Source: a virus
Virus record (IMG/VR): IMGVR_UViG_3300021376_000077
Span: 1 to 54,827 of that record
Reading direction: 5' to 3' (one strand)
DNA: 54,827 bases
Under the pieces are notes generated by a model. That model made no database searches, was not told where the DNA came from, and was given only the letters and a program-made list of their open reading frames with translations. Below are positions 10,746-45,014 of this stretch, one piece after another (position 1 is the first letter of the stretch; the number at the start of each line of letters is the position of its first letter). Made by a program: the position numbers and the translations under genes.

Positions 10746-11552
10746 TTATTTTTTGAAAAAGTTGAACCATTTTTTTTCTTTTTGCGCCTCTAAATCGGCT
10801 TCCCTCTGTTTTTTTCTATAAATTTGGTTTCTGTCTGGGGAAACCAGGCCGCCCTCTCCGAGGCCAGAATTAACAATAAATCTAAACATTGATTCATTGC
10901 CCCATAAAATTCTTTTAAAATTATTTTTTCTTATAATTGGCACCATAAACTGTATTGGAGTACCTGCAGGTATTGTAAACTCTTTGTCAGTAGTTATATT
11001 TAATACAACGTGTATTTGATTATAAAAATCTGTGTGGACAATACCTGGTACAACAGTATAGTTTGGATTGGGTTCATGCAGAATTGGTAGCACCATTAAA
11101 GAAACACCTTTTGGTGTTCTAAATCTCCAAGGAGAAACAAGTTTAGGAAATTGTCCAGTTGGTATTGCTTTTATATTTGTTATAGGACAACCATGAACGC
11201 TGTGACTCTCAAAGCCAGAAACTTCAAAAGAACCAAAGTGCCCGTCCAATTGTCCTAATTTTAATTCAAATGTTTTACCATTAATAGATGGTCTTACTGT
11301 AACATCTGTCCAAAGGGGAATTACAAAACCATTTGTAATATAATCGTAGGTTCCTTGGCATCTCCTAAGAGAACCTTTCATCTTTGGTAAATCTTTCCAC
11401 CAAGATGGAAGTTGCTCGGATGGAAGAAATGGTGGTATGTCCATTAAGCGATTGTCTTGTGGAACGATTAATACTTCTCCCCTTTTTGGGGTTGGTAAAT
11501 CTTTTTTATAATATAAAATTTTATATTTGAATTTGTCTGAGCGCTTCGGCAT
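10746..11552 (-). CDS. Cassette A: conserved 268-aa protein of unknown function
   Basis: 268 aa from the ATG at 11552, exactly the length of its cassette B homologue at 39539-40345. Starting at 11567 would add five residues not matched in the homologue. Conserved features are WWK near residue 51, LRRCxGTxDY near 62-71, a PWxF segment near 141, and PNYxVxPGxVHTDxY at about 163-177, followed by a strand and the turn IPAGTP. The HTD triad resembles the HxD metal ligand pair of cupin-type iron enzymes, but no distal conserved His was found, so catalysis is unproven. The rest is beta-rich with a basic, helical C-terminus. It may match a catalogued domain of unknown function such as DUF6065, which I cannot verify. 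It overlaps the halogenase end by 32 bases. Confidence 0.75.
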   Translation of the reverse strand: MPKRSDKFKYKILYYKKDLPTPKRGEVLIVPQDNRLMDIPPFLPSEQLPSWWKDLPKMKGSLRRCQGTYDYITNGFVIPLWTDVTVRPSINGKTFELKLGQLDGHFGSFEVSGFESHSVHGCPITNIKAIPTGQFPKLVSPWRFRTPKGVSLMVLPILHEPNPNYTVVPGIVHTDFYNQIHVVLNITTDKEFTIPAGTPIQFMVPIIRKNNFKRILWGNESMFRFIVNSGLGEGGLVSPDRNQIYRKKQREADLEAQKEKKWFNFFKK

Positions 11553-12984
11553 GATCAACTGTTGCATGTCCTGTCTGATTTAGCTTCGCCTCGGAGACAA
11601 GATAGTTTACCTGCTCTTCGACATCGTATGAGTATATCATTTCAAATGCCCTCTGTGCGGAAAGAAGACCCTGCCCCTGTGCCACATGATAAAAATGAGG
11701 AACTAAAAACATTTCATAATTATTATTACTAATATCATATAAAAATGGCGGACGCTCCTGCCAAAGTTCTAATAGTTCAACAAGATAATCTGGTTTTTCC
11801 ATATGTTTTTGATCTCTCCACATTTGTGAATCCACTCTATCGGAAATGTAATGTAAACATATCATTGCACATATATTTTCCATCATTTTATTCATTTTTT
11901 TATTATATGAATCTTGTAACTTTTTAGAGTTAATATCATAATTACCCAAATTTTGAGTTAAACATCTAATTTGTTGAATTGTTGAACCAATACTTGTGGC
12001 CTCTAGAGGCTCCACAAAAGCTGCCGCTAAGCCAACAGCTACGCAGTTCTTCACCCAAAATTTTTCAAGATGCCCTGGATCAAATCTAAAGGCTCTCGCT
12101 GGTTCAACTTGTCTTTCAAGAAGTTTGGAAACTTCCTGGATTGCTTGATCATCGGTGCAGTGAAGAGATGAATAAACATATCCATTACCTCTTCTGTCCT
12201 GTGTCGGTATTTCCCATACCCAGCCATTTGGCATAGCCCTAGCCCTTGTATAAGGACGTATTTGACCAGAAGGATCAGATTCAGTAGGGAATGCAATAGC
12301 AGAATCCATTTGCATATATTTCTTATAAGAGTTCCATTTTGTATTTCCAAGTTTGGACATCAAAATTCTTTTAAACCCAGTAGCATCAATCCAGAAATCT
12401 GCATCAACAATATCGCCATTGCCAAGAGAAACGGATTGTATATAACCATTTTCACAATTTAAATTTATATTTTCAATTTCAGAATCAATCATTTTAATAT
12501 TTCTAAATATACAAATATTTGTAAAATATTGATTTAATTTGAAAGTATCAAAATGAAACTGATTAACTGACTGATGTGGATAATTAGCATTAACTTTATT
12601 TTCAATTAAAGCTCTTGATGTAATATTTTCTGTGAGGGTTTTATTGTTCTTAATAAGGCCATTATAGAGAGCAAAATAACCAATAGGTTCCTCTGTTGCA
12701 GCATGTGCAACGCTATGGAAATAATCCGGGGTACGGTTGGTCCAGTTTTCAAAACGAATTCCATATTTATGCGTAGCTCTAGACTGCACTAACATGTCTG
12801 CTAATGGAATTTCACACATTTCCATGAAACTTCGCCAGTGCTCGGTTGAGCCTTCGCCAACACCAATAATGCCAATCTTAGAAGAAGATACACAAGTAAT
12901 TTTAAATTTAGGGAAAACTTTTCTTAGGATCAAGGCTGAAATTAGCCCAGCAGTGCCGCCTCCAATAATGGCAATTTTTTTCAT
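11521..12984 (-). CDS. Cassette A: flavin-dependent halogenase (tryptophan halogenase family)
   Basis: 487 aa, close to the usual length of about 500-540. The family uses FADH2, O2 and halide to make hypohalous acid, which a lysine passes to an aromatic substrate. Visible are the FAD-binding GGGTAG near residue 8, the GVGEGST loop at 41-47, the catalytic lysine K73 in ATHKYGIRFENW, the diagnostic WxWxIP at 255-260, and the active-site glutamate E328 in FVEPLEATSIGS. Related phage enzymes are known, including the cyanophage halogenase VirX1. The ATG overlaps the previous stop as ATGA. No flavin reductase gene is nearby, so reduced flavin must come from the host. Substrate unknown; the neighbouring adhesins are candidates. 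Confidence 0.93.
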   Translation of the reverse strand: MKKIAIIGGGTAGLISALILRKVFPKFKITCVSSSKIGIIGVGEGSTEHWRSFMEMCEIPLADMLVQSRATHKYGIRFENWTNRTPDYFHSVAHAATEEPIGYFALYNGLIKNNKTLTENITSRALIENKVNANYPHQSVNQFHFDTFKLNQYFTNICIFRNIKMIDSEIENINLNCENGYIQSVSLGNGDIVDADFWIDATGFKRILMSKLGNTKWNSYKKYMQMDSAIAFPTESDPSGQIRPYTRARAMPNGWVWEIPTQDRRGNGYVYSSLHCTDDQAIQEVSKLLERQVEPARAFRFDPGHLEKFWVKNCVAVGLAAAFVEPLEATSIGSTIQQIRCLTQNLGNYDINSKKLQDSYNKKMNKMMENICAMICLHYISDRVDSQMWRDQKHMEKPDYLVELLELWQERPPFLYDISNNNYEMFLVPHFYHVAQGQGLLSAQRAFEMIYSYDVEEQVNYLVSEAKLNQTGHATVDHAEALRQIQI

Positions 12985-14051
12985 ATAAATTTATATTTAA
13001 TTATTTTCTCTATAATATTTGTATCAAAATTAGTTATTAATTTATTATTTATTACTAATAGTTCTATATCATCCATTGAATTAGTGTCTAGATCAATATT
13101 ATTTACAATACACAATGTATAAACAGAAGACTCTAAAAATGACTTTTCTTTGTACAAAATAGAATTATCAATCGTAAAAGATTTTTTACTATTCTTAAGT
13201 AAAGAATTAAGTGTTTTATATCTAATATGAGATAAAAAATAATTTTCTAATGATTCTGGAAATATATTTTTTTCTTCAATTTCTTGATATATTTCATTAT
13301 TACCCTGTATATATCTGGCAACTCTCATATCTGTTTCCAAGGAATTTATTTCACTTAAAATATCATTTATACCAAGTGCATTTATAAATGCCATTGCTTT
13401 TACGGCAGGACCCTCTTCACTGGAAAATGGAGACTTTGAAACCTCTGACCATTCAAAAATTTGTTTTAAAATACCAGAAAATGTTCTTGAATATGTATTT
13501 ACAATTTGAGTACTTTTATCTTTGAAATCTTGATCTTTTGTATCGGCACGAAAGATATGACCTATACCGCTTGCTGAAAGAACTACCTTCATAGAAATAA
13601 TGTCATATCTAGTTGTTCTTGGATAAAAAGGAACCGGACCAAATTTGTTATAGTCACATCTAACAAATTCTACTCCATTTGATAATGAACCAGTTCCGCC
13701 GTATGTTGATGGTGGTGTGCCAGCAGACGGCAATTCAATTGAATTCCAAAAATTATAAAATGAAAAAGGATGTGTTGTTGATCCTTGAGCAATATCTTGA
13801 AAATTCTCATATGCAAGCATTTGCATAATATAATCACCATTATCACCAACAATTTGATAATCATGATATCCATGCATAGGTGATTTTTCTTTAAAGCAAA
13901 GCAAAACACCATTATCTGTTTGATAATAGTCAACATCAGGTGCTTCAATCAGTCCACCCGTTGTTTTTGCAAATGCTTTAACATCTCCACTTAGATTTGC
14001 TAGATGGAAAAAATCATACTCGAATGGATTAATTTCATTAATATTTTTCAT
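12981..14051 (-). CDS. Cassette A: fusion of a 239-aa-type protein with a GxDP-type helical domain
   Basis: About 356 aa from the ATG at 14051 (ATGA overlap with the hydroxylase stop). No known family recognised. By eye, residues about 190-285 match the C-terminal part of the cassette B 239-aa protein: shared RTxxxxL, EWS, PFxS, EIxxxxxDM, and R[YF][IL][QK]G. The last about 65 residues match the cassette B 82-aa protein: FLESSVYTLCIVNNIDLDT against LLEREIYFLCLKTGVDPEE. In cassette B these two genes are adjacent, so this looks like a gene fusion. It is extremely AT-rich. A structural partner or substrate-presenting protein is possible; function unknown. Confidence 0.8.
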   Translation of the reverse strand: MKNINEINPFEYDFFHLANLSGDVKAFAKTTGGLIEAPDVDYYQTDNGVLLCFKEKSPMHGYHDYQIVGDNGDYIMQMLAYENFQDIAQGSTTHPFSFYNFWNSIELPSAGTPPSTYGGTGSLSNGVEFVRCDYNKFGPVPFYPRTTRYDIISMKVVLSASGIGHIFRADTKDQDFKDKSTQIVNTYSRTFSGILKQIFEWSEVSKSPFSSEEGPAVKAMAFINALGINDILSEINSLETDMRVARYIQGNNEIYQEIEEKNIFPESLENYFLSHIRYKTLNSLLKNSKKSFTIDNSILYKEKSFLESSVYTLCIVNNIDLDTNSMDDIELLVINNKLITNFDTNIIEKIIKYKFI

Positions 14052-14641
14052 ATAAACCACATCACTAAGCTATATTTTACACCAGATGTTACTGGGTGTG
14101 CTATATGGGTGTAAGGGAAATTAGACGGAAACAAAACAAGTTCATTTGTGTTGAGTTTTATTGTTTTTTTGAAATAAGGAAATTCAAGTTCTCCACCTTC
14201 AAAAGATTCTCCAAAACATCCAACTAAACTCAAAACTCTGCTTGTGTCTGGAGAGTGGTCATGGTGTGCGTGATATTGCGAATTATTCTGATATTTTAGC
14301 AATTGCATTCCCTGAATTGACTGTAGATGTAAATCAAAGCAACGTCTATAATCCCATATACATTCATCAATATTGAAAAATATTTCTTTGTATTGTTTTG
14401 CTAAATCTTTAATATCATCAACAACAGTATCATCAAGCAGTGGCCAAACATCGGCTTCCATGGAGCTTCTATATTCTGACTCAGCAGTATTGCCAATATC
14501 ACCAGTAACAGATCTATTCCAAGAAATATACGGCCATGATTTTTCCGTTTCTTTTTCTAAATTTTCTATAAAATCTGATACATCAAAATAATTTTTATAG
14601 ACAAAAACGCACGGCATCTCTTCATATTTTTCAATTAACAC
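14048..14641 (-). CDS. Cassette A: 2-oxoglutarate/Fe(II) dioxygenase, prolyl 4-hydroxylase-like
   Basis: 197 aa from a GTG at 14641, chosen because the resulting start aligns with the cassette B homologue; a TTG at 14650 is also possible. The family hydroxylates amino-acid side chains using 2-oxoglutarate, O2 and Fe(II). The iron ligands are H126 and D128 in YHAHHDHSP (YxxHxD pattern) and H182 in AHPVTSG. K189 in GVKYSLVMWF occupies the 2-oxoglutarate-binding Arg/Lys position of P4H enzymes. GGELEFP near 149-155 matches the conserved jelly-roll strand. It overlaps both flanking genes, so it belongs to one operon with the halogenase. Adhesin proline-glycine or histidine residues are plausible targets, by context only. 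Confidence 0.88.
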   Translation of the reverse strand: MLIEKYEEMPCVFVYKNYFDVSDFIENLEKETEKSWPYISWNRSVTGDIGNTAESEYRSSMEADVWPLLDDTVVDDIKDLAKQYKEIFFNIDECIWDYRRCFDLHLQSIQGMQLLKYQNNSQYHAHHDHSPDTSRVLSLVGCFGESFEGGELEFPYFKKTIKLNTNELVLFPSNFPYTHIAHPVTSGVKYSLVMWFI

Positions 14642-15032
14642 AGTATTCAAAGCTTTCTAACTCTTGATTGTCAATTACAATTTTACAAGATTTTTTGCCA
14701 ATTTCCGATGAATAGATACAGAATTTTGCACGATGTTTTTCTAATAGAAAGGGTTCATGTATATTATCATTAACTAATAATTGAATATTTTTATTAAAAA
14801 TAATATAATCATTATGATACAGAATATTTTGATGAAAATATTGTTTTATATTTTGAAAATAAGAACAATTTCTAAACTCGGGAACTTCAATAATTTCTAC
14901 TTTATCAAAATTACTTTTAGCTTTTTCAATATCTTTACATAAACCAATATTAATTGGTAAATTATTTTTTTTAGATAAAACTGAAGCCTCATCAATTAGA
15001 TTTTCTGAAGGGCAAAACACAACTCTTTTCAT
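14631..15032 (-). CDS. Cassette A: CPSE-motif protein, function unknown
   Basis: 133 aa, no family recognised. It is homologous to the 146-aa cassette B protein at 38518-38958. Both begin with a strand followed by CPSE (VVFCPSENLIDEA and SVYCPSEEFLEEA), then KNxLxIxIG, and both end in a His/Arg-containing strand region. Predicted alpha/beta N-terminus and beta-rich C-terminus. The invariant cysteine near residue 7 could be functional. The order GxDP protein, CPSE protein, hydroxylase is the same in both cassettes. No Shine-Dalgarno is visible; the ATG lies one base after the TAA of the upstream gene, so coupling is likely. Confidence 0.75.
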   Translation of the reverse strand: MKRVVFCPSENLIDEASVLSKKNNLPINIGLCKDIEKAKSNFDKVEIIEVPEFRNCSYFQNIKQYFHQNILYHNDYIIFNKNIQLLVNDNIHEPFLLEKHRAKFCIYSSEIGKKSCKIVIDNQELESFEYCVN

Positions 15033-15033
15033 A

Positions 15034-15267
15034 TTAAAGAGAGTTCAGTTTATTGTTAATTTCTTGATATTTTTTGTACGCATCATATAGATTCGCTTGT
15101 ACACTTGGGGTTTCCCAATCTTTAAAATCTTCGATTTTAGAGAAATCATAAGTATCAGGATCTAAACCAAGTATAACCATTGAAGAATATATTGTAGATT
15201 CAAAACCATTTTTTGCTGCGCTCAATGCAGCTTTTTTTTGTTCATTTGAAAGTGAAAAATTAATCAT
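15034..15267 (-). CDS. Cassette A: small helical GxDP protein
   Basis: 77 aa, two predicted helices joined by the loop LGLDPDTYD near residues 34-42. Four relatives occur in the window as separate genes or a fused domain (38285, 41808, 43126 and the C-terminus of the 12981-14051 protein). All share an alpha-helical start with KxAxL, an aromatic-rich helix end, G[LIV]DP, and a second amphipathic helix ending in K[LF][DN]xL. An AGGAGG Shine-Dalgarno precedes the ATG by 3 bases. It directly follows the His-rich adhesin gene, as the 87-aa relative does for the second adhesin. A role as adhesin or fibre assembly partner is inferred from this pairing. Confidence 0.75.
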   Translation of the reverse strand: MINFSLSNEQKKAALSAAKNGFESTIYSSMVILGLDPDTYDFSKIEDFKDWETPSVQANLYDAYKKYQEINNKLNSL

Positions 15268-15274
15268 TTTCCTC

Positions 15275-16822
15275 CTAAGAATTGATAATTGTTATAACAG
15301 ATCCACCGTTGGCGGAAACACCACCAACAGAACCTCCACTGACATTTGTAGTAGCCGAAATGGGCGTAGCGCTGTCTGTAACTATGATTATACCACCGCC
15401 TCCACCTGATTTACCATTTGTACCAGCCGTAGTGGACCCATTTGTGCCACTAGATCCTGCGCTACCACCAGGACCACCCACACCACCAGGATATGTTCTA
15501 TGACCAACATGAGCCGTTGGACCGCCGATTCTTGCTCTTCCTTGATGATGTTGGCCGTGCAAATCATGCCTTGCTCTAGAAGCATGTGTAATGTGAGAAC
15601 CTTTGGCCCCTACAACGTGATGTGCATCTGCTTCATGGTAATGATTATGCCCAAGAGGACCGGTTGTTGTATTAACATTATGTGCTACAGCACCACTATG
15701 ACCTAATTGACCTCCTGCTGTGTGATCAATGCCATTTTGATGAAAAAAACTAGCGTCAGCACCAACTGGTGCATGACCTGTTGACGCAACGCCATGATGT
15801 GGATTGCTCCCGTGGTGGTGATTGTGAGGATGAACCGGTGTCGCATCGTGTACGGTATAGGCCCATGTTCCGTGAGCATGAGGGGCATATGTTGCAGGGG
15901 TATGACCGCTATGAGGTAAGCCCAATGGATAGGCCCCACTTGAACCAATGCTTATGGTTGGTCCATGCGTTCCATCGCCAGAAATATAATGAGCATGATT
16001 TTGTGTATAGTGAGCAATTGACGCAGCGGGGGCGGTCGTTCCAGTATTACCAACATTACCTAATGTAGCACCAGAGCCAACTGCAATGCTTCCGCCAACC
16101 GTTGCGTTTGATCCTTGAGCTTTAATAACACCAGAACCAGTAATTGATTTGGCACAGATTAAAACAACTGCACCACCAATTCCACCATCACCCTTGATTG
16201 CAGCTGGAACATCAGTTCCTTTAACTCCGTTTGATCCGCTGGCACCCTGTGTTCCAGGGCCACCGGCAGCACCAATATTTCGGCCTGGTAAAGAGCCAGG
16301 TTGTCCTGGCCAAGATGTTGGAGCACCTCCTGCGCCGGTACCGTCTGCAGCAAGCGTTAGCCCTCCCTCAACACCATCTTCTCCACCAGCACCGCCAGAA
16401 AAAGCAATAAAAGCACTATTAGAATCTACATAACCACCAAATATAATATTTTCTAAAGCGTTAAGAACATAAGATGGTGCTTGTGAGGCAATATATGTCG
16501 ATCCCGCAGCATTACCGCCAAGAGATCCTATAGTATTAGAGGCAATGGGGGCTGTTCCTCTTAGAGTTGCAGTTGAAACTGTTGTACCAGAAGCAACGCC
16601 AAGATTTCCATCTAATGTCAAAGTTCCTTTAACAAATACTTTAAAACCGTTTGTGTTTAAATGGCAATTAGAATTAATTGTTAAGTTATTATAATACATG
16701 TCTCTGCTAAGAGAAATATTGGCTACAATAACAACATCGCCATCTGTTCCGACACCGTATACTGAATCATTGCCTATTCTTTGGACTTTTGCTGGCGAAT
16801 TATATTTATCTATTCCTGGCAT
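15275..16822 (-). CDS. Gly-rich and His-rich adhesin (candidate receptor-binding protein)
   Basis: 515 aa. The N-terminal about 90 residues form a beta domain with RIGNDSVYGVGTDGDVV and LNTNGFKVFVKGTLTL, shared with the 239-aa neighbour and with the second pair at 43398-45726. Residues 140-260 are glycine-rich with many PG pairs (WPGQPGSLPG, GGPGTQG). Residues 271-441 are histidine-rich, about 34 His in 170 residues, many as HxH or HH. A further polyglycine stretch covers 446-478. Glycine-rich stretches like these form packed polyglycine II helices in gp38-type tip adhesins, and HxH motifs bind iron in some fibres. Downstream lie the GxDP protein and enzyme cassette A, possible modifiers. Substrate and receptor unknown. 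Confidence 0.75.
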   Translation of the reverse strand: MPGIDKYNSPAKVQRIGNDSVYGVGTDGDVVIVANISLSRDMYYNNLTINSNCHLNTNGFKVFVKGTLTLDGNLGVASGTTVSTATLRGTAPIASNTIGSLGGNAAGSTYIASQAPSYVLNALENIIFGGYVDSNSAFIAFSGGAGGEDGVEGGLTLAADGTGAGGAPTSWPGQPGSLPGRNIGAAGGPGTQGASGSNGVKGTDVPAAIKGDGGIGGAVVLICAKSITGSGVIKAQGSNATVGGSIAVGSGATLGNVGNTGTTAPAASIAHYTQNHAHYISGDGTHGPTISIGSSGAYPLGLPHSGHTPATYAPHAHGTWAYTVHDATPVHPHNHHHGSNPHHGVASTGHAPVGADASFFHQNGIDHTAGGQLGHSGAVAHNVNTTTGPLGHNHYHEADAHHVVGAKGSHITHASRARHDLHGQHHQGRARIGGPTAHVGHRTYPGGVGGPGGSAGSSGTNGSTTAGTNGKSGGGGGIIIVTDSATPISATTNVSGGSVGGVSANGGSVITIINS

Positions 16823-16823
16823 A

Positions 16824-17543
16824 TTAAACCAACTGCGAGTAGATTACTGTTCCGTTTTGGCACCCAGTACCACCAACAACATTTGTGCTTACATTAGCAG
16901 GGAGCGTTGCCTGAGCTGATATTATTATTACAACTCCACCGCCTCCTCCTCCAGAACCGGCAGTCCCTGGTGCGTTAATTGAAGCATTGACAGTGGTTGC
17001 ATCCGTTGATATATATCTAGCACTTAATATTACAACGCCACCACCTGCCCCAGAAGCACCGCCTGCCCCGCCTCTCAAGAATAATGGATTTATTTGAGAG
17101 GCGGTTACTGAGTACCCGCGAACTGCCTGAACCGGCTGATACCAGTACCCACTCTGAGTTGTTTTATCCCCTGTTCCCCCAGCGCTTGTGGTAGGTGCAG
17201 TGGCATTTGCTGTTGCACTATTTCCTCCAAGTGCATTTATAATGTTTCCCCCAGCGGTGGCTCCACCGCCAGCAATACTTCCATTTGCACTAGACCCTGT
17301 TGCAAACCCGATCACAGCACCGTTACGTAATGTTAAAAGATTTTTAACAAACACACGATATCCATTTGTTATTAATTGTATATTTGCTTGAATTTCTAAA
17401 TTAAAATAATACATATCGGATGTCAAAGTAGTATTTGTAGAAATTGTTACAGAACCATCAGAACCAGACCCATAGATAGGGTCTGGAGCATCAATGAATG
17501 ATGCAAAAGCATTGGCTGCTGGATATTTTATAAAACCTGTCAT
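16824..17543 (-). CDS. Gly-rich adhesin-like protein
   Basis: 239 aa, a shorter relative of the next gene. It shows the same N-terminal beta domain: DPIYGSGSDGSVTI near residue 21, then a strand with MYYFNLEI, then LITNGYRVFVKNLLTLRNG. A glycine/alanine-rich second half follows, with SLRGGAGGASGAGGG-like runs and a hydrophobic VVIIISA strand near the end. It lacks the histidine-rich insert. Its counterpart at 45016-45726 stands in the same order before a large adhesin. It probably forms part of the same tip complex. One base separates it from the 515-aa gene. Confidence 0.7.
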   Translation of the reverse strand: MTGFIKYPAANAFASFIDAPDPIYGSGSDGSVTISTNTTLTSDMYYFNLEIQANIQLITNGYRVFVKNLLTLRNGAVIGFATGSSANGSIAGGGATAGGNIINALGGNSATANATAPTTSAGGTGDKTTQSGYWYQPVQAVRGYSVTASQINPLFLRGGAGGASGAGGGVVILSARYISTDATTVNASINAPGTAGSGGGGGGVVIIISAQATLPANVSTNVVGGTGCQNGTVIYSQLV

Positions 17544-17911
17544 TATGTTTCCTCAATTCCAAATACAGCAATATTGATTGCGGTATTTGAACTGCACAGT
17601 GCAGTTATTTGATCAGAGTTTGTATTATTTGCCGTTGATCCATTGTTATTCAAAACCATTGAGCAGTTAAAAGTGACGGTTTCATTTGCAGCAACAGACA
17701 GTGCACTCAATATATCATGAGTATTGGCTTCAGCAACATTTGCTGGTTTTAAACGAACGGTAACTGTTTTTGCACTATTGGTTGTGTTTGTTAAAATAAT
17801 TTGTTTAATAATTGATGTTGTGCTTTGGGGAACAGTATAAATTACGGAAGAGGCTGTTGTTAACTGAGTTGGGCTTGAAGCCCCAGAGAGTCTTTTTTGT
17901 GTTAAAGCCAC
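17543..17911 (-). CDS. Small beta-sandwich tail-fibre accessory protein
   Basis: 122 aa, beta-rich. The pattern is KRLSGASSPTQL, a strand with VIYTVPQSTTSIIKQIILTNT, then a strand with ANETVTFNCSMVL, and a final strand. The same domain appears at 31760 (N-terminal part), 34766, 35264 and 45730. The recurrent signature is K(Q/x)[IV][IV]xxNxT at the second strand and AANETI/V near the centre. It is probably a trimer-forming fibre or decoration module. The ATG overlaps the upstream stop by one base. Confidence 0.65.
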   Translation of the reverse strand: MALTQKRLSGASSPTQLTTASSVIYTVPQSTTSIIKQIILTNTTNSAKTVTVRLKPANVAEANTHDILSALSVAANETVTFNCSMVLNNNGSTANNTNSDQITALCSSNTAINIAVFGIEET

Positions 17912-18123
17912 TACAAAACCTCCATATATAGTCTAATTAAGATATTCCGATTTTCCTGAGAGGAATTACCACCGCCAGAAGAAGAAAATTCCACTACAGC
18001 ATTGGAAGAGTTTTTATAAAAAATTTTTCCATCTGCATAATTAATAGCAAGTTCGCCATGTTCTAGCGAGGCTGGAACATTTGAAGATGTGCCACTATTT
18101 TTAAGCTTTATAGTATTGGGCAC
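17911..18123 (-). CDS. Short fibre-shaft protein with SLxxGELAINYADGKIFYKN start
   Basis: 70 aa. It begins MPNTIKLKNSGTSSNVPASL followed by EHGELAINYADGKIFYKN, a motif common at the N-terminus of phage tail-fibre proteins, and stops soon after a short Ser/Gly run. The neighbouring 298-aa fibre begins with a related segment. It is either a short accessory protein or a fibre gene truncated after its adaptor. It starts 12 bases after the previous stop. Confidence 0.6.
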   Translation of the reverse strand: MPNTIKLKNSGTSSNVPASLEHGELAINYADGKIFYKNSSNAVVEFSSSGGGNSSQENRNILIRLYMEVL

Positions 18124-20745: not shown

Positions 20746-22689
20746 CTATTCATCATTACTAAGCATTACGCTTATGTAATGAACCAAAAAAGCAACAGAT
20801 GTTGCAATTAAGGTAATCTTTCTAGTATCCCCAGAAAGTGTTGCAAAAACAATAATAGTGCTAGATATTGTAAATGCAAGAGCAGCGGTTTCTTTGCTGA
20901 ACTTTTTAATAAAATTCCATATACTGAATTTTTTCATTCCATCCTCCGTGTATTTATAAATACTATTTGTGGTGTAACTTTCATCATCACCATTTGGCCC
21001 CTCAATCTCGGGAGCCTCCTCATCCTCCTCTTCCCCCTCCTCTTCTTTTTTAAAAGCAGAATTGCTGTCTGATGGCTTGGGGGAGTTTAAACCTCCGCCA
21101 GAACCTCCTGAGCGTGGTTCTGGGCCTCTGACGGGGGCTGCGGCTGCTGCGGTGGCAATGCTTGCTATAGCAAGAAGAGTCCTTCTTTCTTTAACTGGAA
21201 TTGCCGACCCTGTTGGTACATAATCATCAAAACCATCTGCATAAATGTTTATTTCTTCTTCAAAAGCTTCTCTGACTTCTGCCGGGGCATCCTGAACAGC
21301 TTCAATAATTTGAGTTTTTTCTTCTTCTGTTATATCTGAAGTATCAATTGATTGAAAAACCTGTGTGGCTTGTTCTTGCGTTATTTCTTGCAAAACATCT
21401 TTATTTGTAGCCAAATCAACAGCTTCTTCTGTTGTTATAGTTTCTGTAATTTCAGGAATAGTTGTCGTTGTTGGTATTGTTGTTGGGATTGGTAGTGTTG
21501 TTGTCGTTGTACTTGACAATGTTGTTGTCGTTAAACTTGGTGTAATAATCAGTGTAGTGGTAGTGTTTGGAATAGTCGTTGTGGAGGTTGTTGTAGATGT
21601 TGTCGTGGTTTGTTGCACCGTGGTTTCTGGTACCGTGGTTGTTTGCTCTACCGTGCTTGGCGATAACAATATTGTTGTACTGGTGGTTTGAGGAATAGTA
21701 GTAGTCGTTGTAGTTGTTGTAGTGGTAGTAGTGGGCGGAGTAGGATCAATCACCACGGCATCAACAGTTGCCTGGGGTCCGTACATACAGGACCCAGCAC
21801 CCTCTCCGACGCATGGGGCTGTCCCTGCCTGAATCTTAAATCTCACTGGTCCGTATCCAGTTGTTCCAGGCCACATCCATGGGCCGAGGCTGTATGAAGT
21901 ATTTACGGCGTATGTCCACACCCCCCAACCACCAGCTTCTACCCCATCAACCAGGTCATGAAACAAAATGTTGTACATATATGGGGCAGTGTTGCTTGGT
22001 GTTGGGGCGTTCCAACTCAAAACAACATTTCCATCGTTGTCTGCTACCGCTGTGAGATTTTGAACAGAGTTAAAGTATGGCGCTATCGTTGTGGTTGTAG
22101 TACTGGTAGTAGTCGTGGTTGGCGCAACGACAGTCTTCGTAAAAGCAGAGGCGGGAACCACCTGCCATCCCGAACCTATATCCCAGTAGAGAGTCGTATT
22201 GGCTCCGCCACCATTTTCGTAATACCAATATGTGATTGGCTTGGAAACTCCAGCGCTAAAAGAAACGTACTGTGACGGGTTGCCCCAGCCGCCCTTGTCA
22301 ACCCAGTTGTTGTCTATCAAAACATTGTCTATATAGAGTTTGGTTCCGTCATCCGCAGCGGGCAAGAACCTAAACGAGCCAGTCACGGGCAGGGTTATGT
22401 GACCTTCATACTTAACAATAAAGTCTTCGTACATGTTGAACAGCGGTGCATTGTCAAAGTTCTGATTAATCTGAGTGAGAGTGGTGGTTCCAACGACCGG
22501 GCGACCGCTGACCGTGGGGAGTGGAGGCGAATTGTTGTAGCCAAAGTTGTTGTAAACGGTTACACTAAGTCCTGGTTCGGCTTGGGCAGAAATACCGCCA
22601 ATTCCTACCATAGGCGAAATAAATGAGCCGCCAATCGTCGCAAGTAAAATCCAGCTGCCACTTCTGCGGCGAAGTTTCCCGGGGGACAT
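20746..22689 (-). CDS. Surface protein: PA14 domain, fibronectin III domain, Thr-rich linkers, C-terminal membrane anchor
   Basis: 647 aa. The first about 37 residues form a Sec signal peptide (RRRSG, hydrophobic core, AQA before EPG). Residues about 38-190 resemble a PA14 domain (VKYEGHITLPVTGSFRF, DDGTKLYIDNVLIDN). About 210-310 form a fibronectin type III domain (LTAVADNDGNVVLSWNAPT). Long Thr/Ser-rich stretches follow near 195-205 and 315-415, then an acidic helical region, an RRTLLAIASIA segment, a Glu-rich linker, and two hydrophobic C-terminal helices. It would be exported and anchored in the membrane with a carbohydrate-binding-like head. It is the first gene of the leftward transcript. 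Superinfection control, lysis or envelope modification are possible roles. Confidence 0.75.
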   Translation of the reverse strand: MSPGKLRRRSGSWILLATIGGSFISPMVGIGGISAQAEPGLSVTVYNNFGYNNSPPLPTVSGRPVVGTTTLTQINQNFDNAPLFNMYEDFIVKYEGHITLPVTGSFRFLPAADDGTKLYIDNVLIDNNWVDKGGWGNPSQYVSFSAGVSKPITYWYYENGGGANTTLYWDIGSGWQVVPASAFTKTVVAPTTTTTSTTTTTIAPYFNSVQNLTAVADNDGNVVLSWNAPTPSNTAPYMYNILFHDLVDGVEAGGWGVWTYAVNTSYSLGPWMWPGTTGYGPVRFKIQAGTAPCVGEGAGSCMYGPQATVDAVVIDPTPPTTTTTTTTTTTTIPQTTSTTILLSPSTVEQTTTVPETTVQQTTTTSTTTSTTTIPNTTTTLIITPSLTTTTLSSTTTTTLPIPTTIPTTTTIPEITETITTEEAVDLATNKDVLQEITQEQATQVFQSIDTSDITEEEKTQIIEAVQDAPAEVREAFEEEINIYADGFDDYVPTGSAIPVKERRTLLAIASIATAAAAAPVRGPEPRSGGSGGGLNSPKPSDSNSAFKKEEEGEEEDEEAPEIEGPNGDDESYTTNSIYKYTEDGMKKFSIWNFIKKFSKETAALAFTISSTIIVFATLSGDTRKITLIATSVAFLVHYISVMLSNDE

Positions 22690-38284: not shown

Positions 38285-38521
38285 TTGGTTACCATCAATC
38301 GCTCCGTCGCCATGATGGACTCGCTCAAGCAGGAGCTGTTTACGCTGTGCATCCAGAATGGCATTGACCCAGAGACGCTGGACATCGAAAATCCAGATTC
38401 CGACCCAGCAATAGCGGCGTCTACTCCTCACGAGCATAACTTCTATGCAATTCGTAGAATTAAGCAGGTATGCGAGGGATACGTCTTGGCTAAAGGGAAG
38501 TTTGATAATCTAGCCGAGTGA
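38285..38521 (+). CDS. Cassette B: small helical GxDP protein
   Basis: 78 aa from a TTG at 38285; ATGs at 38312 and 38315 would remove the first nine or ten residues, but relatives have longer N-termini, which supports the TTG. Helix, then CIQNGIDPETLDIENPDSD, then a second helix ending AKGKFDNLAE. It is closest in arrangement to the 87-aa gene at 43126 (NGIDPDDIDISNPFEN, LQGKIDSLS). Its stop overlaps the GTG of the CPSE protein (GTGA), as the small protein precedes the CPSE gene in cassette A. Confidence 0.7.
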   Translation: MVTINRSVAMMDSLKQELFTLCIQNGIDPETLDIENPDSDPAIAASTPHEHNFYAIRRIKQVCEGYVLAKGKFDNLAE

Positions 38522-38958
38522 TTCGTTCGGTTTACTGCCCTTCTGAGGAGTTCCTTGAAGAGGCGCAATCTTTAGCTGAAAAAAATAGCCTGTCTATAAC
38601 TATTGGACGGTCGGAATCTATGGAAAATATAGATTTTGACGAAACCAGGGTATGCATTGTCCACATCCCCACAATTCACATTTTTAATATTTCATCGCCG
38701 ACCCTTCCGATTGGACTGATGCAGGCTTTTGGGTATACGTGTGATTACATTGATTTTAAGAAAGATGGCAATACTCCGATACTGAAAGTCAGGTATGGGC
38801 ATAATTTTTCAGAAGAAATAAAAATACAGCCTTTTTATCTAGAGTCCCATATAGCAAAGTATTCGCATAGATTTTCTTCGGCAGGCATACATGATGTGAG
38901 TATTGTTGTTGCCGGGGAAGAATATGTCAAAAATTACACATTTGAGGTGACGGAGTGA
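38518..38958 (+). CDS. Cassette B: CPSE-motif protein, function unknown
   Basis: 146 aa from a GTG in a GTGA overlap. It begins MIRSVYCPSEEFLEEAQSLA followed by EKNSLSITIG, matching the cassette A protein at 14631. The C-terminal half is beta-rich with HIAKYSHRFSSAGIHDVSIV. No catalytic motif recognised apart from the invariant Cys near residue 7. Its stop overlaps the next GTG, so it is translated together with the hydroxylase. Confidence 0.75.
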   Translation: MIRSVYCPSEEFLEEAQSLAEKNSLSITIGRSESMENIDFDETRVCIVHIPTIHIFNISSPTLPIGLMQAFGYTCDYIDFKKDGNTPILKVRYGHNFSEEIKIQPFYLESHIAKYSHRFSSAGIHDVSIVVAGEEYVKNYTFEVTE

Positions 38959-39542
38959 AGATAGAAGTTTTAGCGCCATGCATCAACTATTACACAGAGG
39001 TATATGACGCTTATCCATTAATAGAAATGCTTGAAGAGGAGGCCGATAAATCGTGGCCTCGGATGGAGTGGGCGAGGTCATCTACCGGGCAGGCTGGTAA
39101 TACATCTGTAAATGAGTACCGCTCGTCAATGGAAATGTCCTTGCTACCGATTATGACCGAAGAGGACATACCGGAGTTAAACCACATAAAAGATGGGTTT
39201 CATAAAATATACAGTGAAATAGATAAGTGCGTCTGGGACTACAGAAACCAGTATGAATTATTTATTTCTCGTCACGAGCCATTTAGTGTTTTGAGGTATG
39301 AGAATAGCGCTGAATACCATATACATACAGACTCGTCCCCAGAGAACGGAAGAGTCATGAGTATGGTTGGGTACTTTAACGACGGATATGAGGGCGGAAA
39401 ATTGGAGTTCCCATTATTTAATGTAGAAATTCAGCCAGAGGCCGGCTCTGTAATCCTCTTTAGTTCGGCATATCCATACCAACATGCTGCACACCCAGTA
39501 ACGAAAGGCACCAAGTATTCCTTGGTGACGTGGTTCCAGTGA
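38955..39542 (+). CDS. Cassette B: 2-oxoglutarate/Fe(II) dioxygenase, prolyl 4-hydroxylase-like
   Basis: 195 aa from GTG (GTGA overlap). The iron ligands are H124 and D126 in EYHIHTDSSPENGRV and H180 in HAAHPVTKG; K187 in GTKYSLVTWF would bind 2-oxoglutarate. GGKLEFP near 137-143 is the conserved core strand. It keeps EYRSSME and KSWPRMEW from the cassette A enzyme, well above chance, so the two are clear homologues. GC content is much higher than in cassette A. It overlaps the next gene in GTGA. Confidence 0.88.
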   Translation: MKIEVLAPCINYYTEVYDAYPLIEMLEEEADKSWPRMEWARSSTGQAGNTSVNEYRSSMEMSLLPIMTEEDIPELNHIKDGFHKIYSEIDKCVWDYRNQYELFISRHEPFSVLRYENSAEYHIHTDSSPENGRVMSMVGYFNDGYEGGKLEFPLFNVEIQPEAGSVILFSSAYPYQHAAHPVTKGTKYSLVTWFQ

Positions 39543-40345
39543 GAAAAGTAAAGTACAAGATTGCAAATTTCACTTCGGATATTCCGAGAGTGAAAAAAAA
39601 CGAAATGCTTATAATTCCGCATACAAACCTACTGTGGGAAGTGCCTCCATTTACGAATAGAAACAACAAGCCAGAGTGGTGGAAAAATCTAGAAAAGGGG
39701 AAAGGCTCTCTCCGGAGGTGCCATGGAACTATTGACTACCTGTCTCTGGGCGTCACATTTTCGCTATGGACAAATGTTCACGTAAGACCGACAGCGAACA
39801 ACAAAAGTTTCGAGCTCAAGCTGGACCAAATGGGCGCACCAGAAATGAGGCCAGAGTTTAGAACCGAATGGTTCCCGTACTCCTCAACGGAGGGGTGTCC
39901 GTTTGCAAAAAACAGAGAAATACCTGAAGGCGACTTTCCCAAGCTGGTTACGCCCTGGATGTTTAAAACTGCACCAGGGTATTCCACACTAATCCTTCCG
40001 ACCCTATTTGAGCAAAATCCCAACTATTCAGTTTTGCCGGGAGTTGTTCATACCGACTACTACCACGCAATAAATATTGTTCTCAATATACATACTAAAA
40101 ATGAGTTCACTATACCGATAGGGACCCCCATGTATCAGTTGATTCCATTTAAGAGGAGCGACAATACCTCCGAAATAATCAAGGGCAACGAAAGCATGTG
40201 GAGATTTGTAAACGGAAGAGGTGTTGGCCAGCACTACTTGGGCGATTTTGACAGAAGAATTTCGTACCGCAGGGAGTTGGCGCGAGCCGATGATTCTGTG
40301 GAAAAAGAAGACAAGTCGCTTATTGAAAGAATCCTGAGAAGATGA
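39539..40345 (+). CDS. Cassette B: conserved 268-aa protein of unknown function
   Basis: 268 aa from the GTG at 39539 (GTGA overlap), preferred over a GTG nine bases upstream; this gives the same length as the cassette A homologue. Shared residues: PEWWKN near 45-50, LRRCHGTIDY near 58-67, LVTPWMF near 137, PNYSVLPGVVHTDYYHA near 161-177, FTIPIGTPM, then KGNESMWRFV. The HTD at 171-173 is invariant between copies. Here the gene precedes the halogenase; in cassette A it follows it. Its ATGA overlap couples it to the halogenase. Confidence 0.75.
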   Translation: MRKVKYKIANFTSDIPRVKKNEMLIIPHTNLLWEVPPFTNRNNKPEWWKNLEKGKGSLRRCHGTIDYLSLGVTFSLWTNVHVRPTANNKSFELKLDQMGAPEMRPEFRTEWFPYSSTEGCPFAKNREIPEGDFPKLVTPWMFKTAPGYSTLILPTLFEQNPNYSVLPGVVHTDYYHAINIVLNIHTKNEFTIPIGTPMYQLIPFKRSDNTSEIIKGNESMWRFVNGRGVGQHYLGDFDRRISYRRELARADDSVEKEDKSLIERILRR

Positions 40346-41805
40346 TTAAAACAATATGTGTTGCTGGTTCAGGAACGGCTGGGAACATATTCGCCTTGAT
40401 GCTTAGGCAGGCATTTCCGTCATGTGAAATCATAAAGGTCTACTCTCCAGAAATAGGCATAGTTGGCGTCGGTGAGGGCTCGACTGAACACTGGAAAATG
40501 TTTATGAATATGTGTGAAATCCCATTAGGGGAGATGATTGTAGAGACTTCAGCTACACACAAACTAGGAATTAGGTTCGAAGGGTGGACAAATCACACCC
40601 CTGATTATTTTCACAGTATTAGCGGCAACGAGTATCTAAACCAGTTTGGGCTAATGGGGCTGTACTCGGGTCTTAATGAAAACAGAAAACTTCTAACTAA
40701 TTCAATTTCTTATAGAGGTCTTATAGAGCATTCCGTCCACTCGAAAGACCCACACAACAGGACAAATCAGTTTCACTTTGACACTTTCAAGCTCAATAAA
40801 TACTTCGAAAAGCTGTGTATTCAAAGGAATATAAAACTTGTAGAGGCTGAGATAAAAAATGTGGAAATTGATGTGGAAAACGGACGAATAAAGTCCCTTC
40901 ACCTAGACAATAATAAAGCTGTCAGTGCTGACATATTTATTGACGCAACGGGTTTCAAAAGAGTGCTGATGTCGGCCGTCGGCGCAAATAAATGGAAGTC
41001 ATATTCTAAATTCCTCCCTATGAATGCGGCAATCGCATTTCCTTCAGCTTTGCCAGAAGACAGAAAAATAAACCCCTTCACTAGGGCTATAGCAAAATCA
41101 TCTGGGTGGATGTGGGAAATTCCCACACAAGAGAGACGTGGCAACGGTTATGTGTACTGCTCTGAATTTATTTCTGAAGAAGAGGCTGTTAATGAGGCGT
41201 CTACTCAGGTCGGCTTCGAGGTTGAACCAGCAAGAAAGTTCTCAATAGACCCAGGTTGTCTTGAGGAGCAATGGGTGAAGAACGTCATTTCAGCAGGACT
41301 ATGTTCAAGTTTTGTCGAGCCACTCGAAGCAACCTCCATAGGTTCAACAGTGATGCAATCTGTGGCGGCAGTTAGGTATTTGGCTGGATACAACGGAAGC
41401 CCGGTTTTGGCAAAAAACTACAACGCGCGGATGAATGAAATGATGGAGAATCTCGTGTCCATGATTTCTCTTCACTATCTCTCAGATAGGGGAGATACGG
41501 AATTTTGGAGATTCGCCCAGGGGCTGGATAGGCCGGAATATCTGGTCGAACTTCTGGAGCTTTGGGCAGTGAGACCACCGACAGAGGGGGACATGAAGAA
41601 GGGGCAATATGAGTTATTCCATGAACCCCATTTCTGGCATGTAGCTCAGGGCCAGGGGCTCATCAGCGCTGACGCCTCCTCGCGTATAATTGACATGCTT
41701 GGTATTAGGCAGGCAGTCAACAAAAAAATATGGGACCTCAAGGTTGAGCAAACCGCTGAACCAGTGATTGACCATCTAAAAGCACTACTTGCTCTAAAGG
41801 AGTAA
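40342..41805 (+). CDS. Cassette B: flavin-dependent halogenase (tryptophan halogenase family)
   Basis: 487 aa, the same length as the cassette A enzyme. FAD-binding GSGTAG near residue 9, GVGEGST at 42-48, catalytic lysine K74 in ATHKLGIRFEGW, WxWxIP at 256-261 and active-site glutamate E329 in FVEPLEATSIGS are all present, so the protein should be active. NQFHFDTFKLN near 142 and RRGNGYVY near 265 are the longest blocks shared with copy A. The ATG overlaps the 268-aa gene stop. FADH2 must be supplied by another reductase. Target unknown. Confidence 0.93.
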   Translation: MIKTICVAGSGTAGNIFALMLRQAFPSCEIIKVYSPEIGIVGVGEGSTEHWKMFMNMCEIPLGEMIVETSATHKLGIRFEGWTNHTPDYFHSISGNEYLNQFGLMGLYSGLNENRKLLTNSISYRGLIEHSVHSKDPHNRTNQFHFDTFKLNKYFEKLCIQRNIKLVEAEIKNVEIDVENGRIKSLHLDNNKAVSADIFIDATGFKRVLMSAVGANKWKSYSKFLPMNAAIAFPSALPEDRKINPFTRAIAKSSGWMWEIPTQERRGNGYVYCSEFISEEEAVNEASTQVGFEVEPARKFSIDPGCLEEQWVKNVISAGLCSSFVEPLEATSIGSTVMQSVAAVRYLAGYNGSPVLAKNYNARMNEMMENLVSMISLHYLSDRGDTEFWRFAQGLDRPEYLVELLELWAVRPPTEGDMKKGQYELFHEPHFWHVAQGQGLISADASSRIIDMLGIRQAVNKKIWDLKVEQTAEPVIDHLKALLALKE

Positions 41806-41807: not shown

Positions 41808-42056
41808 ATGGGTATAGAACAGTTTCTATCTGCGGAAGATAAAAAGGCTGCACTTGGGGAGGTTAAGTCACTCCTTGAAAGGGAGATTTATTTCCTGTGC
41901 CTGAAAACGGGCGTAGACCCGGAAGAGATTGACCCAGAGACGTTTACCGCTCAGGGGGTAATCAATCCCGTGCCCGTGAGCATGATGACGTACCAAATAA
42001 TTGAAACCCATTGTAAGAATCTAGTAGCGGTTACAGCAAAACTAGCGACAATGTAG
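41808..42056 (+). CDS. Cassette B: second small helical GxDP protein
   Basis: 82 aa, preceded by AAAGGAG. It starts MGIEQFLSAEDKKAALGEVK, then LLEREIYFLCLKTGVDPEE and a second helix. The N-terminus resembles the cassette A 77-aa protein (LSNEQKKAALSAAK), while the middle matches the C-terminal domain of the 356-aa fusion protein. The next gene encodes the other part of that fusion. Confidence 0.72.
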   Translation: MGIEQFLSAEDKKAALGEVKSLLEREIYFLCLKTGVDPEEIDPETFTAQGVINPVPVSMMTYQIIETHCKNLVAVTAKLATM

Positions 42057-42066: not shown

Positions 42067-42786
42067 ATGGTATGGCCCCAGTATCTAACGCTACCAAATG
42101 AGGTAATTTTTAGACCACCGGCAACGGAGCCGCCTGGTTACAATGGCGTTTTTCAGTTAATGAAAAGCTTTTTTGTTGTTGAAGGTCTAAATGTTCCCAG
42201 AACTGGGCGTTGCGAGAATCTTTGCTATAGCTCGGACTCCCCGGTTGTTGGCACAAAATATGAAAGCGAAGTAAACCTACTCGGAAAGAAGTCACCATTT
42301 TCCGGCACCTCACTAAAGACAGAGAATCTAAAAGTAGTGCGGTGGGTAATGGATGTAAAAGGGCTGTTTTCTATTGTGTATCTGGAATACACAGAACACC
42401 CAGTCGTCTATGGTGAATCGAGAGACTCTTTCTATTTGGAACAGGACGACTCCCCGTCAGCGATGTGGGTTGGCAGAACTCTTCCAGAGCTTTTCAAAAA
42501 CATGAGAGAATGGTCCATCCTTCTGGATGACCCCTTCAATTCTGACCACCCCGTTGCACAGATTTCCAAAGCTGCATTTGATTACATGGGCACCCCAGAA
42601 TGGGTGTATGAGGAAATAGATAATATGCCCGATATGCATTTATCTAGATTTCTCAAGGGCGATGAAAACTATAGAGAGCTCGTATGGGGGTTCCCTCAGT
42701 TTTCTAACGAAATGATTGATTGGCTTGACAGCCACTTTAAAGCCAATAAATTCAAATCTCTTGAGCAGATGCTTGAGGAAATGTAA
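42067..42786 (+). CDS. Cassette B: 239-aa protein, homologue of the N-terminal part of the cassette A fusion
   Basis: 239 aa, no family recognised. The N-terminal half is beta-rich (LKVVRWVMDVKGLFSIVYLE); the C-terminal half is helical, with VGRTLPELFKNMREWS, DDPFNSD, a YEEIDNMPDMHLSRFLKGDE segment and a helical end. The helical half aligns with residues about 190-285 of the cassette A fusion protein. It is the last sizeable gene of the rightward block. A substrate-presenting or structural partner of the enzymes is possible. Confidence 0.68.
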   Translation: MVWPQYLTLPNEVIFRPPATEPPGYNGVFQLMKSFFVVEGLNVPRTGRCENLCYSSDSPVVGTKYESEVNLLGKKSPFSGTSLKTENLKVVRWVMDVKGLFSIVYLEYTEHPVVYGESRDSFYLEQDDSPSAMWVGRTLPELFKNMREWSILLDDPFNSDHPVAQISKAAFDYMGTPEWVYEEIDNMPDMHLSRFLKGDENYRELVWGFPQFSNEMIDWLDSHFKANKFKSLEQMLEEM

Positions 42787-42913: not shown

Positions 42914-43129
42914 TCACCAATGCCCGACTGGGCACTCGGCGTGCTGTAGACGCACCTTGAGGTTCATAAAACAACCACACTTACGACACTGGTTTGTCGC
43001 TTCAATAAAATGAGGGCATTCGGTACATATTGAGTACCTATTACGCGCTTCTTCATCGGATGCGTATTTGGTCGACTTCCTGAAAAAGTCTAAAGGAGAG
43101 GCTTTTTTACCGCGATTTTCTCTTGTCAC
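42914..43129 (-). CDS. Small Cys-rich zinc-ribbon-like protein
   Basis: 71 aa from a GTG at 43129, which overlaps the upstream stop as GTGA; the longer ATG-initiated frame would overlap the upstream gene by 49 bases. Residues about 35-71 carry CTECPHF, CRKCGCFMNLKV and AECPVGHW: CxxC, CxxCxC and a final Cys, a pattern seen in small proteins of many marine and freshwater phages, presumably zinc-binding. Function unknown. It is the last gene of the leftward baseplate-adhesin block. Confidence 0.7.
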   Translation of the reverse strand: MTRENRGKKASPLDFFRKSTKYASDEEARNRYSICTECPHFIEATNQCRKCGCFMNLKVRLQHAECPVGHW

Positions 43130-43389
43130 GAAAGAGAGTCTATCTTGCCTTGCAACATGGCGTAAGCATTGCACAGTTCTTCAATTCGTGACACCTCGAT
43201 TGATTTACTGGGATTCTTTTCGTCATCTTTAAGTGATGCCAAAATTGAGTTTTCAAATGGGTTGGAAATATCTATATCATCAGGGTCTATCCCATTGATG
43301 GCCAGCAGTCTGAACAACTCTGTCGCTATTTGTGACTTAGCAGCAGAAAGCGAAGCCATTTTCTGTATGTTTGAAATTTCAAGTTTCAT
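43126..43389 (-). CDS. Small helical GxDP protein next to the second adhesin
   Basis: 87 aa, helix-loop-helix with INGIDPDDIDISNPFENSIL and a C-terminal helix ending MLQGKIDSLS. It follows the 538-aa adhesin gene by 8 bases, as the 77-aa relative follows the 515-aa adhesin. TAGGAGAAG ahead of the ATG gives a good Shine-Dalgarno. This repeated pairing supports a link between the GxDP family and the adhesins. Confidence 0.75.
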   Translation of the reverse strand: MKLEISNIQKMASLSAAKSQIATELFRLLAINGIDPDDIDISNPFENSILASLKDDEKNPSKSIEVSRIEELCNAYAMLQGKIDSLS

Positions 43390-43397: not shown

Positions 43398-45014
43398 CTA
43401 ATTATTAAGAACAATTATCTGCATTCCTGGAGTGCCAGCTATGCTCCACGGGGGAATCGGTAAGCTTGATGTACCACCAGAGGTGTCAATTGATATCCCG
43501 GAAGGTGGGGATGTCTCGGTAACCAATATTACTCCTCCTCCGCCCCCAGGATTGCCATTAGTTCCTTCTGTTACTGAGCCAGCAGTTCCCGCTGGTCCGG
43601 CCAATCCAGCTACCCCTGCAGCACCACCAGGCCAATCGAAGGAATAGTGCCCTACGTTTAGAACTGGTCCAGCATGTCTGTGTACATTTACATCATGGGC
43701 TCGGGGCGCTCTATGGTGTACGGTGTACTGGCCGGTAACGTATTGTATGCCGCCGGAGAACCCGCCTTGACCGCTGTTATTTGCCCCAGTATGGTTCACG
43801 TTGGCGTTGTGATGATAATGAACAGGGTTATCAAGTTGCATGTGCGCATAATTACCCGCTGGAGCTCCACCGGTAGATGAAGGAGAGGAAAAGTGATTAT
43901 GGTTTACCCCATTTATAGAAGTAAAATCACCGGCGAACGGAACAAAGTTATTTAGTATCCCATGGTCATGGTGGGTTGCTGCCGCAAAAGTCGGAATACC
44001 ACCTATTGATGCTGAGTAATGCTCTTCATACACATATCTTTGAGACGCAGAGCTGGCATGACTCATGATAAATGAGCCATTCGTTGGGTCTGGAAAACCA
44101 GCCGTACGCGCGCCAGCATGTGAATGCGGCAGTGGGGTTGTGTGGTGGTCCTGTCCACTGTGGTGCGCTGGCCTAGTGTGATGGTATGTATAAAAGGCAA
44201 CAGCGTGTCCAGTCTTAGCGGCTGGAGAAGAGCCTCCCGAACCAGGCGAGCCTCCATGCATTGGCCCTGGCGCTATTGCCGGTGTTTTATCAATTCCATT
44301 CCTTCCTTGACTAAAAATTGTTCCACTTCCAGCGACAGTCTTTGCCGCGACTATTACAACAGGTCCACCAAAACCTCCTGCTCCGCCAACCCCCGCTGTA
44401 CCCGGCGAAGCCAAAGCGCCTCTTGTCCCTGGCGTTGCATCCGAGCCTTTTCCACCAGGAACACCATGGTTGTTTGCATCTGGTGGATACTGTCCAGGAC
44501 TACCGCCTGTACCGGCAGAACCGGGCCATGTTGCAGGGGAATCTGTACCGGGTGTTAGTGTTCCATTTGTTCCAGATGTTCCTCCGGAACCGCCAGAAAG
44601 CTGCCTCAAAATCCCAGAAGACTCCCGGTATGAGCCAGATACAGCAGATTGCACATCATTTAAAATAGATGCGGGTATTTGTGTTGCTGTTGTTCCAGGA
44701 CCAGCTCCGCCTATTGAGTAAATTACCGCAGTAGAAGATGGTGTATTCCCAGATACAGTACCGGAAGTAACAGTTGTATTGCTTTTCACACCTATGGAAC
44801 CATTTATCGTCAGTGCACTTTTCACAAAAACCCTGAACCCATTCGTGTTTAGATGAACCCCAGAATTTATTGTTAGATTGTTATAGTGCATGTCCCTAGA
44901 TAGCGAGGTGTTGGCTGAAATAACAACGTTTCCATCCACGCCACTTCCATAGACAGAATCGTTGCCAATTCTTTGTTTAAAGGTTTTATCTGGAAATCTT
45001 ACGAGCGAACCCAT
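43398..45014 (-). CDS. Gly-rich and His-rich adhesin, second copy
   Basis: 538 aa, homologous to the 515-aa protein. The N-terminal about 90 residues match closely (QRIGNDSVYGSGVDGNVVIS, SLSRDMHYNNLTINS, HLNTNGFRVFVK). Residues 140-265 are Gly-rich with many PG pairs; residues 270-456 are His-rich but share little sequence with the other copy; residues 463-495 are again Gly-rich, with GLAGPAGTAG and a GGGGG run. The conserved frame with a divergent His-rich centre suggests selection on the central part for binding. The target is unknown. Confidence 0.75.
   Translation of the reverse strand: MGSLVRFPDKTFKQRIGNDSVYGSGVDGNVVISANTSLSRDMHYNNLTINSGVHLNTNGFRVFVKSALTINGSIGVKSNTTVTSGTVSGNTPSSTAVIYSIGGAGPGTTATQIPASILNDVQSAVSGSYRESSGILRQLSGGSGGTSGTNGTLTPGTDSPATWPGSAGTGGSPGQYPPDANNHGVPGGKGSDATPGTRGALASPGTAGVGGAGGFGGPVVIVAAKTVAGSGTIFSQGRNGIDKTPAIAPGPMHGGSPGSGGSSPAAKTGHAVAFYTYHHTRPAHHSGQDHHTTPLPHSHAGARTAGFPDPTNGSFIMSHASSASQRYVYEEHYSASIGGIPTFAAATHHDHGILNNFVPFAGDFTSINGVNHNHFSSPSSTGGAPAGNYAHMQLDNPVHYHHNANVNHTGANNSGQGGFSGGIQYVTGQYTVHHRAPRAHDVNVHRHAGPVLNVGHYSFDWPGGAAGVAGLAGPAGTAGSVTEGTNGNPGGGGGVILVTETSPPSGISIDTSGGTSSLPIPPWSIAGTPGMQIIVLNN

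Follow-up and report, generated by a model that had tools for sequence, protein, structure and literature searches.

A glycine-rich, adhesin-like phage protein with a histidine-rich loop is a candidate substrate of the halogenase and oxygenase from neighboring genes

A family of glycine-rich, adhesin-like proteins of freshwater phages bears a long loop rich in histidine, and its genes nearly always sit next to those of a flavin halogenase and an iron oxygenase; sequence comparison marks these proteins as candidate self-modified phage attachment proteins. We tentatively favor, as possible rather than probable, the reading that they are virion adhesins whose flexible aromatic loop would be modified by the neighboring halogenase and oxygenase. 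The member analyzed here, A515, is encoded in IMG/VR record IMGVR_UViG_3300021376_000077, positions 1 to 54,827 (the window, that is, the whole 54,827-nucleotide stretch).

Results

Anatomy of the histidine-rich protein

The protein and its partner are encoded as follows.

15275..16822, reverse strand: A515, Gly-rich adhesin-like protein with a His-rich insert, 515 residues
16824..17543, reverse strand: A239, Gly-rich partner with an N-domain related to that of A515, no His

Glycine accounts for 19.8% of A515. Of its 35 histidines, 34 reside within residues 271-441 (DNA positions about 15500-16012) and make up 19.9% of this block, in agreement with the one in five residues given by the original prediction. 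The clustering is not due to chance, as 33 of the 35 histidines occupy a single 170-residue stretch, a concentration equalled in 0 of 5000 shuffles. The block is inserted in the Gly-rich part of the protein, preceded by GGxGG-type segments and followed by PGGVGGPGG...SGGGGGIIIV, so the anticipated glycine-rich frame is present on both sides. Base-composition bias was ruled out as the source of the block because the adjoining Gly-rich A239 has no His and its homologues are His-poor (median 0.8%, n=232). The A515 N-domain weakly matches phrog_13336, a family with no described function (E 0.003, and 1e-7 for the homologue B538 listed below), and the match is confined to this domain.

Finer details of the original prediction did not hold. 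Many of the histidines had been placed in HxH or HH motifs, but the block contains 7 HxH and 5 HH, each against 6.5 expected from its composition; an HxH excess over residues 54-441 (p 0.03), computed without conditioning on the block, disappeared upon conditioning. The PG dipeptides described as numerous amount to 7 in the whole protein against 5.0 expected, which is not a significant over-representation (P 0.21), and none is found in the His block.

An AlphaFold model of the A515 monomer, computed with 34 homologues, is confident for the N-domain and the Gly domain and leaves residues 295-437 without structure at pLDDT 30-45, values that are compatible with metal-induced folding or with order in the trimer. 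No preformed metal centre was seen in this monomer. The adhesin model had no match in the PDB, a search in which, in our judgement, Foldseek may handle PGII poorly, and among viral models it matched phage proteins and giant-virus collagen-like proteins. Sequence matches to COP1 and AAA proteins, returned as PDB homologues of the adhesin, resemble low-complexity Gly matches and were rejected as not credible. The predicted disorder of the His block, its composition-level HxH count and the lack of a similar solved structure in our searches lend no support to the metal-binding centre proposed initially, although a flexible His-rich chain may bind metal.

Two related cassettes in a chimeric window

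The window contains two cassettes, each with a His-rich adhesin. The first comprises, besides A515 and A239:

17543..17911, reverse strand: A122, conserved small protein, upstream of A239 and A515
15034..15267, reverse strand: A77, small protein directly downstream of A515
14631..15032, reverse strand: A133, cassette protein
14048..14650, reverse strand: 2OG-Fe(II) oxygenase (PF13640, HxD...H...K invariant)
12981..14060, reverse strand: A359, cassette protein
11521..12984, reverse strand: flavin-dependent halogenase of family PF04820 with its catalytic Lys and Glu
10746..11567, reverse strand: phrog_7084/DUF6065-like protein, dUTPase-like fold

The second cassette and the zone joining the two parts of the window are:

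45730..46065, reverse strand: B111, counterpart of A122
45016..45726, reverse strand: B236, Gly-rich partner of B538
43398..45014, reverse strand: B538, His-rich adhesin of the second phage, homologous to A515
43126..43389, reverse strand: B87, counterpart of A77
42067..42786, forward strand: C239, second-cassette protein
41808..42056, forward strand: C82, another homologue of the small A77/B87 protein
40342..41805, forward strand: flavin-dependent halogenase
39530..40345, forward strand: phrog_7084/DUF6065-like protein
38955..39542, forward strand: 2OG-Fe(II) oxygenase
38518..38958, forward strand: C146, counterpart of A133
21719..22592, no strand: chimera junction zone, in a PA14/Thr-rich gene (20746-22689) common to both phages

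A search of the window identified B538 as 39% identical to A515, with 31 His gathered at the same place, and recovered the pairs or sets A122/B111, A239/B236, A77/B87/C82 and A133/C146 along with the two oxygenases, halogenases and phrog_7084 proteins. Duplication of the cassette within one genome was rejected since the matching contigs, where compared, carry only one side. Contigs G001 and G002 match window positions 1-21434, and G003 (6637-18776) and G004 (16523-22592) match within the left part, all at 99.8-100% identity and all without copy B. Contigs G005 (119 kb) and G006 match the right part and lack the left part where tested; within the stretch compared, the G006 match begins only at 21719. 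G004 and G006 are 96.8% identical over 871 bp of the PA14/Thr-rich gene, and the G+C content rises stepwise at the junction inside this gene. As the left-matching contigs lack copy B, the right-matching contigs lack the tested left part and the switch falls inside a common gene, we conclude from these contig comparisons that two related phages, each contributing one cassette, are joined in the window at ~21.7-22.6 kb, as an assembly chimera or, alternatively, a rare recombinant. Inferences that treat both halves as one genome therefore need rechecking. The second phage also encodes another His-containing fibre, a collar-type tail fibre (30155-31408) with repeats such as TQNSHNHTQNEHTH.

The cassette enzymes retain their catalytic residues

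Both halogenases score far above the curated PF04820 cut-off of 21 bits (348.6 bits for the first cassette and 324.1 for the second) and harbor the GxGxxG motif as GGGTAG, THK with an invariant K73, EPLEATSI, and WxWxIP as WVWEIP or WMWEIP; they are predicted flavin-dependent halogenases. Their nearest solved relatives are annotated as tryptophan halogenases, with VirX1 among the matches, and weak, sub-threshold matches extend to LodB, QhpG and GoxB. Flavoproteins of this superfamily can act on protein-bound residues. The oxygenases, which score 48.7 and 58 bits against PF13640 (cut-off 27) and in which H129, D131, H182 and K192 of the HxD...H...K signature are invariant, are likewise predicted members of the 2OG-Fe(II) family. 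The phrog_7084 protein is DUF6065-like with a dUTPase-like core, and almost all cassettes encode it, whether they have a halogenase or not.

The aromatic residue of the loop switches with the halogenase

Scanning viral contigs with proteins and profiles yielded 258 structural homologues, many of them redundant. Among 50,697 phage records, there was no known isolate with the adhesin. The usual gene order in halogenase-bearing members is A122, the small Gly-rich protein, the large His-rich protein, a small protein, A133, the oxygenase, the halogenase and phrog_7084. In the family alignment the insert is variable and is bordered on either side by invariant Gly columns. The anatomy put forward originally, a His block within an adhesin-like protein rich in Gly, is thus upheld and conserved in many phages, and the long His-rich block is a trait of a family and not of A515 alone.

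We grouped the cassettes into clusters at 75% identity and assigned dominance by comparing His with Tyr in the most aromatic 120 residues. The insert is His-dominant in 60 of 61 halogenase-bearing clusters, L179 being the single exception, and Tyr-dominant in all nine clusters with a complete cassette and no halogenase, which contain 18-33 Tyr and 0-10 His per 120 residues (Fisher p 1.5e-10, a statistic that ignores ancestry). The highest value is 48 His in 120 residues, in L148, which has repeats such as PGGHHHT. An earlier comparison of 47 clusters with a halogenase and 18 without, the latter mixing cassette and distant members, found His 6.8-fold higher with the halogenase (p 4e-9, the largest difference) and Pro 1.65-fold higher; Trp and Tyr were discarded as residues rising with the halogenase because their proportions are the same in both sets. 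In one halogenase-free locus (L112:1958-4186), a long NYP/TYP-type Tyr-rich repeat replaces the His block, and the protein has 71 Tyr and 0 His.

The oxygenase is found with His-rich and Tyr-rich forms alike and the halogenase with His-rich forms only, and for this reason it is the halogenase, rather than the hydroxylase, that we connect with the His block. The proposal that A515 is a candidate substrate of a neighboring enzyme accordingly stands in outline, but it had named the hydroxylase, which goes with both forms, and had left unnamed the flavin halogenase, which is the enzyme that tracks His.

An N-domain tree built from 115 columns and 72 rows shows a single change of halogenase state, and a branch with strong support separates the Tyr-rich halogenase-free forms from the others; many independent gains or losses of the halogenase were dismissed since the tree requires one change only. 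The correlation between His and halogenase thus amounts to a single evolutionary contrast followed by long maintenance, and shared ancestry could explain it, as both states change together only once.

The linkage was also recovered from the enzyme side. A halogenase-profile scan gave 569 loci, of which we analyzed the 80 closest to the query, a sample that for this reason favors its close relatives and that includes repeated contigs. Within this sample, the large adhesin lies within 7 genes of the halogenase in 72 of 80 loci. In five of the eight remaining loci, no more than 2 kb of sequence precedes the halogenase before the locus is truncated, and L164, L201 and L202, each with at least 3.5 kb of upstream sequence, are true exceptions. 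The peak His content of the 72 adhesins has a median of 26 per 100 residues and reaches at least 10 in 71 of them, as compared with a median of 3 for the 1088 other open reading frames of the halogenase loci, 13 of which reach at least 10.

Halogenases and Gly-rich tail genes in cyanophages

The halogenases of cyanophages Syn10, S-CREM1, S-WAM1, P-TIM40 and S-RIM44 (isolate Np_42_0711) come after Gly-rich tail-region genes, some of which are annotated as collagen-like, PE-PGRS or tail fibre. VirX1, identical to CPUG_00131, is the second of the two paired Syn10 halogenases (PDB 6QGM matches along the full length), and Gly-rich tail genes whose products contain His lie immediately upstream of its gene. 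The Syn10 and S-CREM1 Gly-rich proteins match Pfam Gly_rich_2, and all 12 records matching the Syn10 protein come from phages also found in the halogenase searches. The ten cyanophage Gly-rich proteins compared, all from halogenase-bearing phages, have 6-13 His in the Gly domain, with conservation at a few invariant positions. The association is not general, since the neighbors of several other cyanophage halogenases are metabolic or of other kinds.

Related arrangements vary in composition. In S-SRM01, a gene annotated as adhesin tip complex directly behind the halogenase (L300:11374-12462) encodes a Gly-rich protein that frames a stretch rich in Trp and Cys and has no His. Shortly downstream of the S-CREM1 halogenase and collagen-like gene, nine consecutive genes (L305:12559-18049) comprise eight annotated as 2OG-Fe(II) oxygenases and one as JmjC. 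In Actinomycetia phage DSL-LC01 (L298:8088-11927), collagen-like genes adjoin a divergent halogenase, and the product of the gene immediately upstream is Tyr-rich (40 Tyr), not His-rich.

Discussion

In T2-type gp38 adhesins, hypervariable loops project from a body rich in Gly (PMC12892980). A515 resembles the polyglycine tip adhesins of this type (S16, PP01) in having a variable loop region between Gly-rich segments, and a surface adhesin role is proposed for it; it differs by its very long His-rich loop, its halogenase cassette and the lack of a credible sequence or Foldseek match to solved structures. As an His-bearing phage surface protein it is also reminiscent of the iron-binding HxH fibres of the T4 gp37 type, although without their HxH enrichment and without an ordered metal site in the model. 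The cassette halogenase shares with VirX1 its PF04820 membership (E 3e-44) and a genomic setting with Gly-rich, His-bearing tail genes, yet the two are distant (~29% identity for the best Syn10 match) and the adhesin neighboring VirX1 belongs to another family (Gly_rich_2).

We propose that ordered N-terminal and Gly-rich domains would display a long, flexible, aromatic-rich loop on the virion surface. The His-rich loop would be the protein substrate, in the infected cell, of enzymes from the same cassette, above all of the flavin halogenase through imidazole halogenation, and the 2OG-Fe(II) oxygenase would probably hydroxylate loop residues. The effect of such modification would be to tune how the loop adheres, how stiff it is or how it binds metal, and the modified loop may serve virion adhesion or robustness. 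Tyrosine is usually halogenated more easily than histidine, which counts against His as the target. Halogenated histidine occurs in nature (PMC8659048), and the Nereis jaw proteins Nvjp-1 and Nai11527, Gly/His-rich structural proteins reported to be zinc-bound, with Nvjp-1 probably halogenated, indicate that Gly/His-rich chains can be both (PMC13120676). These animal proteins provide an analogy in mode of action, and we do not claim homology. We know of no enzyme that halogenates them.

Several readings do without modification of the loop. It could act as a flexible tip that binds metal (Zn, Ni, Cu or Fe) or responds to pH, with operon history as the only link to the halogenase. Up to 48 His in 120 residues and the PGGHHHT repeats of L148 resemble metal-binding His-rich proteins, but the model has no preformed site in a disordered block, HxH and HH are not enriched, and the presence of Tyr in place of His exactly in the halogenase-free clade is left unexplained; we consider this reading unlikely. 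Still less probable, in our view, is an unmodified hypervariable, low-complexity receptor-binding loop that binds no metal and in which the lineage decides between His and Tyr as the aromatic residue. The gp38 loops (PMC12892980) and the variable insert between conserved Gly columns are consistent with it, whereas it does not account for the way in which halogenase, oxygenase and DUF6065-like genes stay linked to the adhesin across dozens of diverged phages.

The usual auxiliary-metabolism reading, in which the cassette enzymes act on a small molecule or a host component and the adhesin gene is a mere neighbor, agrees with published proposals of antibiotic protection of the host (PMC2984593, PMC9964418) and with the cyanophage halogenases located among metabolic genes. 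We nonetheless regard it as improbable, and the most doubtful of these explanations, as the cassette has no recognizable pathway genes, its neighbors are structural-type genes and adhesin His content tracks halogenase presence. Modification of the adhesin loop by the cassette enzymes thus remains our preferred, if tentative, reading.

Phage halogenases have long been known from cyanophage genomes, and the published roles considered here are speculative (PMC2984593 and PMC9964418 among them); our literature search found no paper on phage halogenases acting on tail proteins. Here, the residue composition of a structural protein can be predicted from whether a halogenase gene is nearby, and this offers a concrete, testable protein substrate. 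It is conceivable, though somewhat doubtful, that, throughout a class of aquatic phages, a cassette traveling with the adhesin gene serves to halogenate and hydroxylate a dedicated His-rich loop of the adhesin post-translationally, and that this is the natural role of such viral halogenases, perhaps including VirX1. If so, viruses would own an enzymatic means to tune their attachment proteins chemically, and these phages would be a source of protein-acting halogenases.
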